Assembly (NCBI GenBank): GCA_026394715.1
Contig: JAPKXR010000187.1
Coordinates: 1 to 40,834, forward strand
Length of the DNA: 40,834 nt
Direction: 5' to 3'
Source of the DNA: Methanomicrobiales archaeon
Lineage (GTDB): Archaea > Halobacteriota > Methanomicrobia > Methanomicrobiales > Methanospirillaceae
Position numbers and translations under genes: made by a program. The notes beneath the pieces are model-generated. The model was not told where the DNA came from. It did no database searches and saw only the letters and a program-made list of their open reading frames with translations. Shown piece after piece: positions 28,835 through 35,251 of this stretch. Every line of letters starts with the position of its first letter. The first letter of the stretch is position 1.

Positions 28835-30070
28835 ATGGTTCAGACCCAGGTCGAACTGGCGGCGGGGGGAGTCCTGACCCGCCAGGTGAAGGACGTGGCA
28901 ATGGCAGGGCACGTGCCGCCGGATGTACTCATGGGCCGGGTTGCCCGGGGGAGCGTCGTGATAATGACGAGAGGGGAGGTATCGGTGGGTATTGGTGAAG
29001 GTCTCAAAACGAAGGTCAACGTCAATCTCGGGACTTCTTCGGTACCATGTAATCCACATGAAGAAGAAAAAAGGCCATTATTGCAGGAAAATATGGTGCG
29101 GATACCATCAGTGACCTGTCGATGGGTGGCAGTATCACGGACATACGGAAAGCGATTTTTGAAAACTCCTGCCTTCCGATCACCACGGTCCCCCTGTACC
29201 AGGCATGTGCAGAACAGGGAATAAAAAAATTAACCACTGACCATATCCCTGATGCCGTCCGGATGCAGGCCGGGGAAGGCGTAAGCTCGTTTGTGTTTCA
29301 TTGCGTCTCAAACGAGATGCTTTCATTGCTCAAAACGAAACGGAGAATTCTTGAAGTTGTTTCCAAGGGTGGCTCGATCACCTGCGCGTACATGCTCAAA
29401 AACGAGGTTGAAAACCCATTTATCGAGAATTTTGATGAACTGCGGTCAATACTGAAACAACACGATATCGTCCTGTCTTTCGGGAATACGATGCGGAGCG
29501 GATGCATCCATGACATCCGTGACAAGGTCCAGGTAGCCGAGATGAAAAATAATGCTGAACTTGCGTCATATGCCCATGCATCGGGAGTCCAGGTAATAAT
29601 CGAAGGGAACGGTGATCATGTCAGGGCAGACCGGATCGCAGGGTATGTCAAATACCAAAAACGCCTGTCCCCGTCTCCGCTCTTTGTCGCGGGTCCCCTA
29701 CCGACCGATCTCGCGATGGGCCATGATCATATCGCCGGGTGCGTGGGCGCAAGTATCGCAAGCGGTGCGGGCGCTGATTATCTCTGTTATATCACCCCTG
29801 CAGAAACACCTGGGCCTTCCGGACCCGGAACAGGTCCGCAAAGGGCTGATTGCATTCAGGATTGCAGCCCATATCGGGGATAGCATCAAGTACGGCCTTT
29901 CAATGAAAGATGCCGAACTTGCTTCAAAGAGGGCGGAACTGGATTTCGAGGGGCAACTCTGCCACGCAATTGACCCGGAGAGGGCAGAAGAAATTGCGCA
30001 ACGAAGCGGGCCCTGTACGATGTGTGGGGAGTTTTGCGCCATTAAAATCATGAAAGATTATCATTCATAA
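28835..30070 (+). pseudogene. ThiC-family radical SAM enzyme, divergent, with two one-base frameshifts
   Basis: Joined across frames the product has about 411 residues, normal for archaeal ThiC. Seen are VGIGEGLKTKVNVNLGTSS, YGADTISDLSMGGSITDIR, SKGGSIT, HDIVLSFGNTMRSGC, GPLPTDLAMGHDHIAG, LCYITPAEHLGLP and the C-terminal cluster motif C-x2-C-x4-C (CTMCGEFC) that binds the [4Fe-4S] used with SAM. The canonical ThiC motif GDALRPG reads GNTMRSG here and EGPGH reads EGNGDH, so this is a paralogue rather than standard ThiC. ThiC makes HMP phosphate for thiamine; the paralogues BzaA/B/F make 5-hydroxybenzimidazole, the cobamide base of many methanogens. Breaks: one A too few in the A-run near 29070, and one A too many near 29805. 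It is first in the operon leading to coenzyme M genes. Confidence 0.8.
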
Positions 30071-30084
30071 CGCCCGGGTTTGCT

Positions 30085-30958
30085 ATGCACCCCTTTCCAT
30101 GTTCCCATGCAACGGACCGATGCAGCGGGAACTGCACCACACACCAGGGAGGAACTTGATACCCAAGGTTCTTATCAGGCAACTCATCAGTAATTACGGC
30201 AGCCACACTGCATAAATCCATAATCTTTCCAAAGGTGGCATCGCTGACTTCATGATGATCGAATTGTTGCCGGGCCACCCAGTGCGGGAAAAACAGCGGT
30301 AGTGCGGCAGATCCTGCGATCAGTGGCCGGCTCCCGGAACGTTGCCTACCTGAAAATCGATGTTGTCAGGGCATTTGAAGATGAGGAGCTGAGGGCAGAG
30401 TTTTCCATCCCTGCAAAATGTGTCTATTCCGGGGACCTCTGTCCGGATCACATGGGGATCATGATCCTCGCAGACTCCCTTGTCTGGGCAGAGCAGGAAA
30501 AGGCGGATATACTGATCATCGAACGTGCGGGACTGTGCCTCCGCTGTACCCCCTATACTACCCAGTCACTGGGTATTGTCGTATTATCCTCTGTCAGCGG
30601 GACCAATGCACCGCTCAAAATGGCCTGATGATTGCGCTTGCCAACATTGCGGTCGTGACAAAGACCGACCTTGTCTCGCAGGCTGAAAAAGAAGTCTTCC
30701 GGGAGAAGATCCGCACGGTTTCACCCAACGATTGATATTGTTGAGACCGATGCGATCCAGGGTACTGGTATGCGCTACCTGATGCAGGCGGTTACATCCA
30801 CTCCGGAAATCAACGATGCAAAGACAATAAAGCTCCGGGGAATATCCCCGCTGGGCGTCTGTACGATCTGTGCAGGAAAACAGGAGATTGGATGGCAGAA
30901 CCATTGCGGCGTCGTTCGGAAACTAAACAGTACAGAAGCCATCTTCCGGGGGGATTGA
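30085..30958 (+). pseudogene. HypB/UreG-like SIMIBI GTPase with cysteine motifs, frameshifted
   Basis: Rejoined pieces: a Cys-rich head (MHPFPCSHATDRCSGNC), PKVLIRQLISNYGSHTA, then the P-loop AGPPSAGKTAVVRQIL, AYLKIDVV, KCVYSGDLCPDH, IIERAGLCLRCTPYT, LMIALANIAVVTKTDLV with the guanine motif TKTD, and a tail CTICAGKQEIGWQNHCGVVRK. This is the HypB/UreG/CooC class of metal-insertion GTPases. The CxxC in the middle and the Cys-rich tail are not typical of HypB and suggest an Fe-S or metal site. Frame changes: near 30145, one stop near 30212, a missing A near 30260, a missing G near 30626 and an extra base near 30730. The start at 30085 is a reconstruction; a shorter form may start at 30252. It lies between the ThiC-like and Fe-S genes. 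Confidence 0.65.
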
Positions 30959-30961
30959 ACC

Positions 30962-31579
30962 ATGGTGTTTACTCCCCCGGACCGCAACTGCGGAGCTTGC
31001 GGTGTTTTTTTGTGCGATGAATTTTTACAACGGGTAAAAGAGGGCAAAAAGCAGGAGACGGACTGCATTTTTTATAGTAATCACGAATCGCGCTGTGAAC
31101 CGGATACCTTCATACACTCCCTCACCGATATCAGGGGAACCGCGTACGATTTTGTCATCGCCCCGTTTCACGGTGAAAAATCCGCACGTACAATGATCCT
31201 GCCCTTCCGGCCGGATCTTGTCGGGCGCTGGAATATCGTGCAGGGTGATCTGGTATCGGGCCGACCGATGGGCCAGGGATGCCCGGTCCCGCATTTCCTC
31301 GAAGTAATCCGGGCGAATCCTGTAACCGGTCTCCTGACCTGTCATGCGGTCGGTCCTCTTGTCGCACGGGACAGACCATGCCACCCGCTTGAAGCCTATC
31401 ACGTGATCAGGTTTGAAGGCAGGGCTGTAGAGATTATCAACGAACCCGCCATAGGGCACCGCATGAGTTTCCTCCCCTCCTTTTGCATGCTCCAGCTTGC
31501 CCATACGGGTGTGGTGAACCAGGTGATCCAGTCCGGTAACGACACGAATATCCGCGTGGAGGATATCAGGATAGTATGA
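30962..31579 (+). CDS. Fe-S (PF04060-type) protein of the coenzyme M-linked operon
   Basis: 205 residues. The N-terminal motif C10-x2-C13-x4-C18-x16-C35 (NCGACGVFLC then TDC) matches the Fe-S domain found in the CODH/ACS gamma subunit and related proteins, which binds one [4Fe-4S]. The remaining 165 residues are a beta-rich domain with LPFRPDLVGRW, IVQGDLVSGRPMGQGCPV and PVTGLLTCHAVGPL that I cannot name. It starts 3 nt after the GTPase stop and its own stop overlaps the DUF39 start (ATGA). It may pass electrons or a cluster to its neighbours; this is inferred from context. Confidence 0.8.
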   Translation: MVFTPPDRNCGACGVFLCDEFLQRVKEGKKQETDCIFYSNHESRCEPDTFIHSLTDIRGTAYDFVIAPFHGEKSARTMILPFRPDLVGRWNIVQGDLVSGRPMGQGCPVPHFLEVIRANPVTGLLTCHAVGPLVARDRPCHPLEAYHVIRFEGRAVEIINEPAIGHRMSFLPSFCMLQLAHTGVVNQVIQSGNDTNIRVEDIRIV

Positions 31580-32820
31580 AGACCACCGGTGGGATCAATG
31601 CAAAGATCCGAAACGGTACTGTGCTCGTCATGACTGCTGCAGAGCTCAAGCAGCACATCCGCAATGGGGATACGATAACCCCCGATGATGTTGATGTCGT
31701 AACGACCGGAACGTTTGGCGTGATGTCTGGTACCTATGCCGTGCTCAGCATCCCGGTTGCGAAAAAAAAGGCGTTTTTTAAAGCCGAACGGGTATGGCTC
31801 AATGGTGTCCCTGCGGTACCCGGCCCATGCCCGAACGAGAACCTTGGGCTCGTCGACCTGATCGTGTACGGGACAGCCCATGCGAACGCTTCGTATGGCG
31901 GGGGGCACCTGTTGCGGGACCTTGTCCAGGGAAATCCCGTTGACGTTGTCGTTAAAGCAGAACAAAAGACGTTCAACGCCTCGGTTACGCTTGAAGACCT
32001 GGAATTTGCACGCCTTATCACCACCCGGAGTGCTTTTAAAAATTATTCTGCGCTGGTAAACCCCCGATCCCGCCCGTTAAACTCGACGATCTTTTCCGTT
32101 ACACCGATGCAGGGGCGTTTTACGGAGGCAAGTGTCAGCGGGTGCGGGGAGATCAATCCCCTGGAAAATGATCCCGCTATGCGGGTTATCGGGCCGGGAA
32201 CACATATACTCGTCAATGGTGGCGAAGGATATGTGATGGGGACAGGTACCCGCAGTTCCGCCGGGCGCCCGAACCTCTCCTTTTTTGCCGACCTCAAAGG
32301 GATGGACCCTGATATGATGGGTGGTTTTATCACGTCCGCGGGGCCTGAATGTCTCGTGTCCTGCGCAGTACCGATCCCGGTCCTTGACAACGAGTCCCTT
32401 TCGGCCCTTTCGGTCCTTCATGAACAGGTCCCGCTGCCGGTTGCTGATGTTGCGGACCGGACTCCGCTGGCTGTAACAACCTATGGTGAAGTCTGGAACG
32501 GGACCGATCCGGTCATCAGGTTTGATCCATCGCTCTGTACCTCCTGTGAATCATGTGCTGCGGCGGCCCGGTGTCCAACAGGAGCAATAACTACCGGCCC
32601 GATTAACTATCACTACTGTGTCCATTGCGGGACCTGTACATTCACCTGCCCGGCCCATGCGTATCATGGCCGGCTTGGGTCACTGCCGATAAATCCCTCG
32701 CAGAAGGTCCCGGTCGTCCTTCGGCAGTCCAGCCTTACCCATGCAAAACGGCTGTGTGAACGGTTGAAGCATCAGATTATGAAGGGTGAATTTTTCCTGA
32801 CCGGCCCTTTTGGGGAATGA
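31576..32820 (+). CDS. DUF39 (COG1900) sulfur-incorporation protein with C-terminal 2x[4Fe-4S] ferredoxin
   Basis: 414 residues. Residues about 1-310 are DUF39: DVVTTGTFGVMSGTYA, GVPAVPGPCPNENLG, VDVVVKAEQKTFNA, NYSALVNPRS, SGCGEINPLENDP and GTGTRSSAGRPNLSFFADL. The C-terminus carries two cluster motifs, CTSCESCAAAARCP and CVHCGTCTFTCP. COG1900 proteins with a ferredoxin partner make homocysteine from aspartate semialdehyde and sulfide in methanogens. In this copy a Ser stands where, from memory, the homocysteine-forming group has a catalytic Cys (FG-x-M-C), so it may be another subgroup. Overlap with both neighbours (ATGA at each end) ties it to cysteate synthase and ComDE. That makes it a candidate for the last step to coenzyme M (sulfoacetaldehyde plus sulfide plus electrons). 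The family is certain; the reaction is inference. Confidence 0.88.
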   Translation: MKTTGGINAKIRNGTVLVMTAAELKQHIRNGDTITPDDVDVVTTGTFGVMSGTYAVLSIPVAKKKAFFKAERVWLNGVPAVPGPCPNENLGLVDLIVYGTAHANASYGGGHLLRDLVQGNPVDVVVKAEQKTFNASVTLEDLEFARLITTRSAFKNYSALVNPRSRPLNSTIFSVTPMQGRFTEASVSGCGEINPLENDPAMRVIGPGTHILVNGGEGYVMGTGTRSSAGRPNLSFFADLKGMDPDMMGGFITSAGPECLVSCAVPIPVLDNESLSALSVLHEQVPLPVADVADRTPLAVTTYGEVWNGTDPVIRFDPSLCTSCESCAAAARCPTGAITTGPINYHYCVHCGTCTFTCPAHAYHGRLGSLPINPSQKVPVVLRQSSLTHAKRLCERLKHQIMKGEFFLTGPFGE

Positions 32821-34125
32821 TTTCTATGGGAGATTACCAGATCCAGTGTACTGCGTGTGGGCGATTATACCCGGATACCGGCTCGAATGAATGCCCGGAC
32901 CGGCATGCCGCTCTCCAACGCACGGTCTATTCAGCACAGCGTCTGCCTTGTGCCGACCTAACGGGAATGATGAGGTTTTATGACTGGCTGCCTGTGCATA
33001 ACAGACCGGTCGTGACTGCAGGGCCGGTCACGTACAAAAGCGAGGTGTTTGCCCGGGAACTCGGGCTTTCCCACTTGTACGTTACGTTCAACGGGTTCTG
33101 GCCGGAGAAGGCAGCGGCCATCAAAACATGCTCATTCAAAGAATTAGAGGCAGTCCCGACCCTTGCCCGGGCAGCGGAAAAGAAGAGCGGGATCCTTGTC
33201 GTAGCCTCGGCAGGAAATACCGGCCGGGCATTTGCGCAGGTTGCGGCAGGTATGAATACGCCTGTCGTTGTTGTTGTCCCAAAAAAATCCCTGCCCCGCA
33301 TCTGGACAACCGTTCCTGCCGACACGGTACTCCTGATCACGGTCGAAGGGGACTACTCAGATGCCATCAGTATGAGTAATTACATTGCGGACCTCCCCCA
33401 TCTCACGGCGGAAGGCGGGGCGAAAAATTGTGCCCGGCGGGATGGGATGGGGACCGTGATGCTGGATGGGGCAACAACTATCGGCCGGATTCCGGATTAT
33501 TACGTGCAGGCTGTCGGTAGTGGGACCGGTGCGATTGCCGCATGGGAAGCAAGCCAGCGACTGGTCCGTGACGGACGGTTCGGCCATCACCTGCCCCGCA
33601 TGGTCTTGTCGCAGAACCACCCGTTTATACCGATGGCAAACGCGTGGAACGCGGGAAGAAGAGAAATTGATCCAATGACTGATATGGCGGATGCAACGCA
33701 GGCAATTTCCGAGGTCTATGCCGATGTCCTGACCAACCGCAACCCACCCTATGGCATTACGGGAGGATTATTTGATTGCCTCACCGAAACCGGCGGGGAG
33801 ATAGCTGCCGTACGTAATGATGAAGCACGACGGGCACAGACGTAATGATGAAGCACGACGGGCACAGGGCCACTTTGAAGAATGTGAGGGTATCGACCTT
33901 GACCCCGCCGCAGGGGTGACCGTTGGGTCCCTCATATCAGCAGTTCAGCAGGGACGGATTGATCCCAAAAAGAATGTGTTACTGAATATTACCGGCGGGG
34001 GCTATAAGCGGGTGCAGGAAATGTTCGATTGTATTCAGGTGCCTGTCGGCCTTGCAACCAACAATACGACCAACAAGGACGAGATTGCCAGATTCGTCAG
34101 TGACTGGGTGAACGCACATGCATGA
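32817..34125 (+). pseudogene. Cysteate synthase interrupted by a 28-bp tandem duplication
   Basis: Without the duplication the gene codes for 426 residues, the normal length. The fold is threonine-synthase-like and PLP-dependent: an N-terminal zinc ribbon (CTACG, then CPDRH), the PLP Lys in TCSFKE (K108), the substrate loop ASAGNTG, the phosphate loop QAVGSGTGAI, and in the C-terminal frame LLNITGGGYKR. The enzyme turns O-phosphoserine and sulfite into cysteate, which enters coenzyme M synthesis. An exact repeat of 33812-33839 at 33840-33867 shifts the frame, so the first frame stops at 33845 and the last 90 or so residues follow in another frame. GGGGAA at 32810 favours the ATG at 32826 as true start; the ATG at 32817 overlaps the DUF39 stop. 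The stop overlaps ComDE by 8 nt. Confidence 0.93.
33812..33867. repeat. Exact 28-bp tandem duplication
   Basis: Positions 33812-33839 and 33840-33867 are identical. The unit codes for RNDEARRAQ in the gene frame. As 28 is not a multiple of three, it breaks cysteate synthase; deleting either copy restores one continuous frame. Confidence 0.97.
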
Positions 34126-35251
34126 GGATACACTCATTCAGCACCTGGGCGACCAGGGGATCAATCTTGCCGTCTCGCTCCCGTGTGACAAGGCAAAAAT
34201 GCTCTGTAGTCTTCTTCCCGAATCGTTTGAAACAATAGAACTCCTCCGCGAGGAAGACGGTGTGGGAGTCTGTGCAGGGGCATACCTTTCCGGACGAAAA
34301 CCAGTCATGGTCATCCAGAGCTCAGGCCTTGGCAACATGCTCAATGCACTCCTCTCGCTTTCGCGGACCTATGAACTGCCGCTCCCGATAATCGCCAGCT
34401 GGCGGGGAGTCTACAAAGAGACCATCCCTGCGCAGGTACCGTTCAATACAGCCCTCCCCGGTATTCTTAAGGCCGCTGACATCCCGTTTGCCATTGTCGA
34501 TCACCCGGACGAGTTTGACCGGGTATCAGAAATAATCGGGACGGCATACCGTTCACACACCCCGGCCGTAGCACTCGTCTCACCACGTTGCTGGGAGGGA
34601 CCATCGGTATGCGAACGGGATGAAGAAACAAAAGACCGGGCGCGGGAGATCAGGATTGTCCATGAACGAGCAGTTCCATCCCCGACAATGACCCGGCTGG
34701 ACGCAATCCGCGCGATTGTCCCGCACCTGAACGATGCTCTCGCAGTCTCAAATATTGGCATTCCGGGTAAGGAACTATACTGGACCGGGGACCGTAAGGA
34801 AAATTTCTACATGCTTGGCAGTTACACGCAGGCCACCCCCATCGGGTTTGGGATTGCACTCTCCTCGCACCGCAAAACGATTGTCATCGACGGGGATGGA
34901 AGCCTGCTCGGCACGGCCATACTCCCGGTGATAGCGGGAAAAAAGCCTCGGAACCTCACTATTATCTGCCTGGACAACGGGGTATTCGGCAGCACCGGCA
35001 ACCAGATGACACCTGCCTGCCAGCAGGTTGACCTGGAACTTTATGCCCGTGCATGCGGTTTTGAGCAGACGGCAAAGGTTACCTCTGCAGAAGAGATTGG
35101 CGGGGCAATTGCATCCCTTCAACAAGGCCCCTCATTCCTTCATGTGGTGATACGCCCGGGCAACTCTGATGTCCCCAATATCCCATTCACACCGCAGGAG
35201 ATTCGTGACCGGTTCATGAGCACGGTCCGGACCGGTGCAATTCAAGGCTGA
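34118..35251 (+). CDS. comDE: Sulfopyruvate decarboxylase, fused alpha-beta (ComD-ComE)
   Basis: 377 residues. Residues about 1-165 match the alpha chain (ComD) with the TPP-activating Glu in LLREEDGVG (residue 45-46) and SGLGNMLNAL. Residues about 190-377 match the beta chain (ComE) with the TPP/Mg motif IDGDGSLLG (GDG at 259-261) and CLDNGVFGSTGNQ. The enzyme decarboxylates sulfopyruvate to sulfoacetaldehyde in coenzyme M synthesis. Methanocaldococcus has two separate chains; the one-chain form is typical of Methanomicrobia. Overlaps cysteate synthase by 8 nt and ends the operon. An aminotransferase is needed to link cysteate to sulfopyruvate and is not in the window. Confidence 0.95.
   Translation: MHEDTLIQHLGDQGINLAVSLPCDKAKMLCSLLPESFETIELLREEDGVGVCAGAYLSGRKPVMVIQSSGLGNMLNALLSLSRTYELPLPIIASWRGVYKETIPAQVPFNTALPGILKAADIPFAIVDHPDEFDRVSEIIGTAYRSHTPAVALVSPRCWEGPSVCERDEETKDRAREIRIVHERAVPSPTMTRLDAIRAIVPHLNDALAVSNIGIPGKELYWTGDRKENFYMLGSYTQATPIGFGIALSSHRKTIVIDGDGSLLGTAILPVIAGKKPRNLTIICLDNGVFGSTGNQMTPACQQVDLELYARACGFEQTAKVTSAEEIGGAIASLQQGPSFLHVVIRPGNSDVPNIPFTPQEIRDRFMSTVRTGAIQG

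Follow-up and report, generated by a model that had tools for sequence, protein, structure and literature searches.

A probable coenzyme M synthase (methanogenesis marker 16, ComF) in a partly broken operon of a Methanomicrobiales archaeon

The stretch of DNA analyzed here (the window; 40,834 nucleotides) carries on its forward strand a group of genes centred on a 414-aa open reading frame (31576-32820), in which a COG1900/DUF39 domain (PF01837) is combined with a fused ferredoxin and which we refer to as methanogenesis marker 16 (MMP16), or ComF. It is preceded by an intact gene for a COG2000-type FeS protein (30962-31579; PF04060), overlapping MMP16 by 4 bp (31576-31579), and by a broken HypB/CobW-like GTPase gene (30263-30958), of which a relative (L035) has an intact copy. 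Downstream lie a broken cysteate synthase gene (cs; 32826-34125; TIGR03844) and an intact gene for a ComDE sulfopyruvate decarboxylase fusion (34118-35251; TIGR03845, TIGR03846), which overlaps the cs remnant at 34118-34125. The coupling by overlap to cs and ComDE noted in a preliminary description of this DNA holds, with the qualification that MMP16 and cs share 4 bp (32817-32820) only if cs starts at 32817, the likelier start being 32826; what that description had missed is that cs is not intact. The sulfoacetaldehyde-making genes adjoin MMP16, though one of them, cs, is broken as assembled. Genes for the ATPase, the GTPase and the COG2000 protein are often co-located with MMP16 (PMC12068725), and in UBA10516 the order is ATPase-GTPase-COG2000-MMP16-cs-ComDE, with all genes intact. 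In the window, a third, frame-shifted copy of thiC (28835-30070) stands where relatives carry the operon ATPase gene.

A domain search confirmed the DUF39-ferredoxin protein of the preliminary description, with a PF01837 match of 337 bits and additional 4Fe-4S motifs. The COG1900d domain spans about residues 17-310 and 365-408, and a 2x[4Fe-4S] ferredoxin is inserted between these two parts; its eight cluster cysteines (Cys321, 324, 327, 333, 348, 351, 354 and 358) are all present, bearing out the earlier claim that the ferredoxin is fused on the same chain. The NCBIfam profile for methanogenesis marker 16 (TIGR03287) is matched with 511.9 bits, compared to a curated cut-off of 363.95 bits, and is covered from position 1 to 389 of 391. 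Judged from its sequence, the window protein is very probably (we estimate about 0.92) orthologous to methanogenesis marker 16 and hence to ComF, the coenzyme M synthase.

Coenzyme M (CoM) is required for all biological methane formation. The function of the family is already published, and the window protein is a new ortholog of a known enzyme. A role for MMP16 was hypothesised by Perona and co-workers in 2018, and MJ1681 was tested in E. coli by White in 2019 (both as cited in PMC12068725). Chadwick et al. 2025 found that deletion of MA3299 turns M. acetivorans into a CoM auxotroph without sulfide, and their deletion, complementation and transcriptome data in this organism support the role of MMP16 (PMC12068725); a late-2025 paper still terms the last CoM step possibly non-enzymatic (PMC12713407). 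The earlier proposal of a candidate for the last step of CoM synthesis thus matches published work on the family as far as function is concerned, but the step was not missing, having already been filled.

Aligning the protein with MA1821 and its paralogues, as the preliminary description had suggested, placed it in the MMP16 subgroup. In a tree of 61 MMP16-type and 42 L-aspartate semialdehyde sulfurtransferase (L-ASST)-type sequences, a single branch separates the two types (SH-aLRT 100), and the window protein lies on the MMP16 side, nested with the proteins of UBA10516 and RA.bin40, the nearest named relatives of the genome (84% and 83%, respectively). Its Pfam family, PF01837, is common to both types and would also fit a homocysteine-forming L-ASST (COG1900a); we consider this identity highly improbable, as the protein falls outside the L-ASST clade, lacks both L-ASST cysteines (Ser51 instead of Cys; Cys130 absent), has neither CBS domains nor a separate NIL-ferredoxin partner, and shares its genome with a proper L-ASST on another contig (C350), where a COG1900 gene with CBS domains is followed by a NIL-ferredoxin gene. 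This second DUF39 gene is of the kind that the preliminary description had suggested looking for. A sole DUF39 copy grouping with homocysteine-forming members would have spoken against its proposal; given the second copy and the grouping found here, the proposal stands.

Ser51 (codon 31726-31728, in FGVMSGTYA) occupies the position of the essential L-ASST cysteine, Cys54 of MA1821, which is required in vivo (PMC12068725). The replacement of a catalytic Cys by Ser, which the preliminary description had noted for this protein, extends to the whole alignment, with Ser in 61/61 MMP16 and Cys in 42/42 L-ASST sequences, so that at the level of sequence Ser51 is diagnostic for MMP16 versus L-ASST. 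The two further cysteines it had highlighted, Cys85 in GPCPNE (codon 31828-31830) and Cys190 in SGCGE (codon 32143-32145), are indeed both present, but the latter is dispensable in vivo and sometimes Ser. More precisely, Cys190 is Cys in 57 MMP16 rows and Ser in four, all from an ANME-1-type branch (L039, L040, L109, L118), in agreement with the published dispensability of Cys200 and Cys202 in MA3299, the mutants of which still complement (PMC12068725). Cys85 is the most conserved non-cluster cysteine, kept in 60/61 rows. The one exception is a divergent MMP16 paralogue (L128 6029-7273) with Val at this position, 35% identity and a score below the TIGR03287 cut-off; its genome has neither cs nor ComE, and a similar divergent paralogue occurs in G110.

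Modelled with AlphaFold2, the window protein reached a confident pLDDT of 93.3 and a pTM of 0.91; the weakest inner block of the model is the Cys85 loop around residues 81-90. Searching the PDB by sequence returned matches in the ferredoxin part only and no solved COG1900 core, and Foldseek returned no PDB match to the model below E 0.001; without a solved core, structure is no help on mechanism. In the mechanism we propose, ComDE next door would supply sulfoacetaldehyde, MMP16 would replace its aldehyde oxygen with sulfur, and the two fused [4Fe-4S] clusters would relay the electrons that reduce the sulfur-bearing product to the thiol. With Ser in place of the catalytic cysteine of L-ASST, and with Cys190 dispensable, we suggest Cys85 on its flexible loop as the residue that may carry the sulfur. 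For MA3299, mutants are described for Cys200 and Cys202, but apparently not for Cys95, the likely counterpart of Cys85 (PMC12068725). The comparison yields a lead for mutagenesis: a conserved and apparently unprobed cysteine.

Complementarily, we evaluated how MMP16 is distributed relative to the rest of the pathway. Among 149 genomes of the class, it was found above the cut-off in 79 of the 87 with cs and ComE versus 6 of the 62 others (Fisher p 3e-25), and among 152 genomes of the Methanosphaera (L069) class in 120/130 with ComE versus 4/22 without (p 7e-13), both p values ignoring kinship among genomes. With respect to the idea that loss of MMP16 is confined to genomes with L-ASST, eight of the ten genomes with ComE and no MMP16 in the latter class also lack a full-length L-ASST, their assemblies perhaps being incomplete. 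MMP16 genes also turned up in bins labelled Bacilli and Desulfobacula (L057, L067); L057 is probably mis-binned, because its protein is nearly identical to that of Methanocorpusculum parvum. The distribution bears on the idea that MMP16 is kept for another thiol-forming step as well, such as coenzyme B synthesis. L-ASST and MMP16 could not be jointly deleted even when CoM was supplied, from which a shared role has been suggested (PMC12068725), and in the window MMP16 outlives cs. Against this, nearly all of the 62 genomes without the cs-ComE pair are also without MMP16, which makes a universal second role unlikely, and we judge the idea as a whole to be quite improbable.

Several genes of the window operon are broken. 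The only cs gene that we found in the genome is thrown out of frame by an exact 28-bp tandem duplication spanning 33812-33867, whose copies lie at 33812 and 33840. The GTPase gene leaves its frame at about 30625 and regains it at about 30727, and no in-frame start was seen. The operon ATPase gene is absent from the window, and the frame-shifted thiC found upstream instead has two intact copies elsewhere (contigs C327 and C397). A second MMP16 copy on contig C57 (L127 15547-16511; 76% identical over 974 bases) is likewise broken; no CoM genes surround it. MMP16 itself is intact with a dN/dS of 0.13-0.15; the values are 0.13-0.19 for MMP16, COG2000 and ComDE, all intact, and 0.10-0.19 when the first part of cs is counted in, versus 0.35 for its last part. 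Calculated from identities, the last part of cs has diverged about 2.3 times as much as the first, versus 1.3- to 1.7-fold in eight other pairs. Long open reading frames elsewhere in the window are intact, which speaks against general sequencing error behind the broken genes; a local assembly error might still account for them.

We take the broken genes to mean that CoM synthesis in this lineage has apparently undergone recent decay, the main alternative being assembly error. On this reading, the pathway may be failing, because its cysteate synthase supply line appears broken. One consequence would be that ComF no longer works in CoM synthesis here, CoM being imported and the gene a recent survivor of a decaying operon. 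The lesions in cs and the GTPase gene, the missing ATPase gene with a broken thiC upstream, the broken second MMP16, the elevated divergence behind the cs lesion, the intact frames elsewhere and two congeners (G112 and G126) without MMP16, cs and ComE all favor such a loss of use. The low dN/dS of the three intact genes argues against it and indicates that MMP16 has stayed under selection in this organism; moreover, the genome, from a Methanoregulaceae-type archaeon, is a 3.25-Mb draft of 402 contigs, probably a metagenome assembly, and exact tandem duplications can arise from misassembly. We place loss of use at slightly below even odds. Given the cs frameshift and the congeners lacking the pathway, use of the window MMP16 in vivo is uncertain, and either outcome is compatible with the identity of the enzyme itself as ComF.

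A different departure from the common pattern was seen in eight Methanoregulaceae-family genomes (operons L119-L126) among the 149, which have cs and ComE and no MMP16. Their single COG1900 gene is of the L-ASST type, and four of the eight genomes are single contigs. The operon order ATPase, GTPase, COG2000, cs, ComDE is kept, with COG2000 and cs nearly touching. When five operon proteins were concatenated for a tree, all eight formed one clade (SH-aLRT 100), a pattern consistent with a single old loss. Adjoining the operon in all eight are a divergent HTH gene and an SsuA-like (sulfonate-binding-like) gene. The SsuA-like protein (roughly 313 aa) starts directly in its domain without a leader, as expected of a cytosolic protein, has invariant Cys76, 99, 220 and 257, and yields a weak model (pLDDT 66.5); it occurs in 12/149 genomes, which besides the eight include three that carry MMP16 and one that lacks the pathway. 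Two MMP16-bearing genomes carry, next to their normal MMP16 operon, a second ATPase-GTPase-COG2000 set beside SsuA-like, ThiF and ThiS genes (L142 4239-8756; L143 4540-8737). In a tree of ATPase, GTPase and COG2000, built after the idea of a second module had been written down, the MMP16-less operons and these second sets group together (SH-aLRT 99), to the exclusion of every operon with MMP16. This suggests a second module type (type B) that may coexist with, or replace, the MMP16 type. That type B, with or without L-ASST, supplies the last step and gives methanogens an MMP16-independent way of finishing CoM seems to us unlikely. Replacement by L-ASST, along the lines put forward for the deletion in M. 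acetivorans (PMC12068725), is the simpler reading for the MMP16-less genomes. A lineage with the pathway minus MMP16 could decide whether L-ASST or another protein replaces MMP16 in nature.

Overall, the new observations of this analysis are the apparently decaying operon with an intact MMP16, the natural Cys190-to-Ser replacement and the MMP16-less Methanoregulaceae operons. Compared to L-ASST (COG1900a; MA1821/MA1822), the window protein has in common the COG1900 core and, presumably, the equivalent aldehyde-to-thiol chemistry; it differs in carrying Ser for the catalytic Cys, in having its ferredoxin on the same chain rather than as a separate NIL protein, and in the absence of the CBS domains found in L-ASST. 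With characterized MMP16/ComF proteins (TIGR03287; MA3299, MJ1681), in turn, it shares domain order, the fused ferredoxin, the Ser51/Cys85/Cys190 pattern and an operon with the COG2000 FeS protein, cs and ComDE, differing only in the state of that operon, in which GTPase and cs are broken, the ATPase is missing and an extra, broken MMP16 exists.
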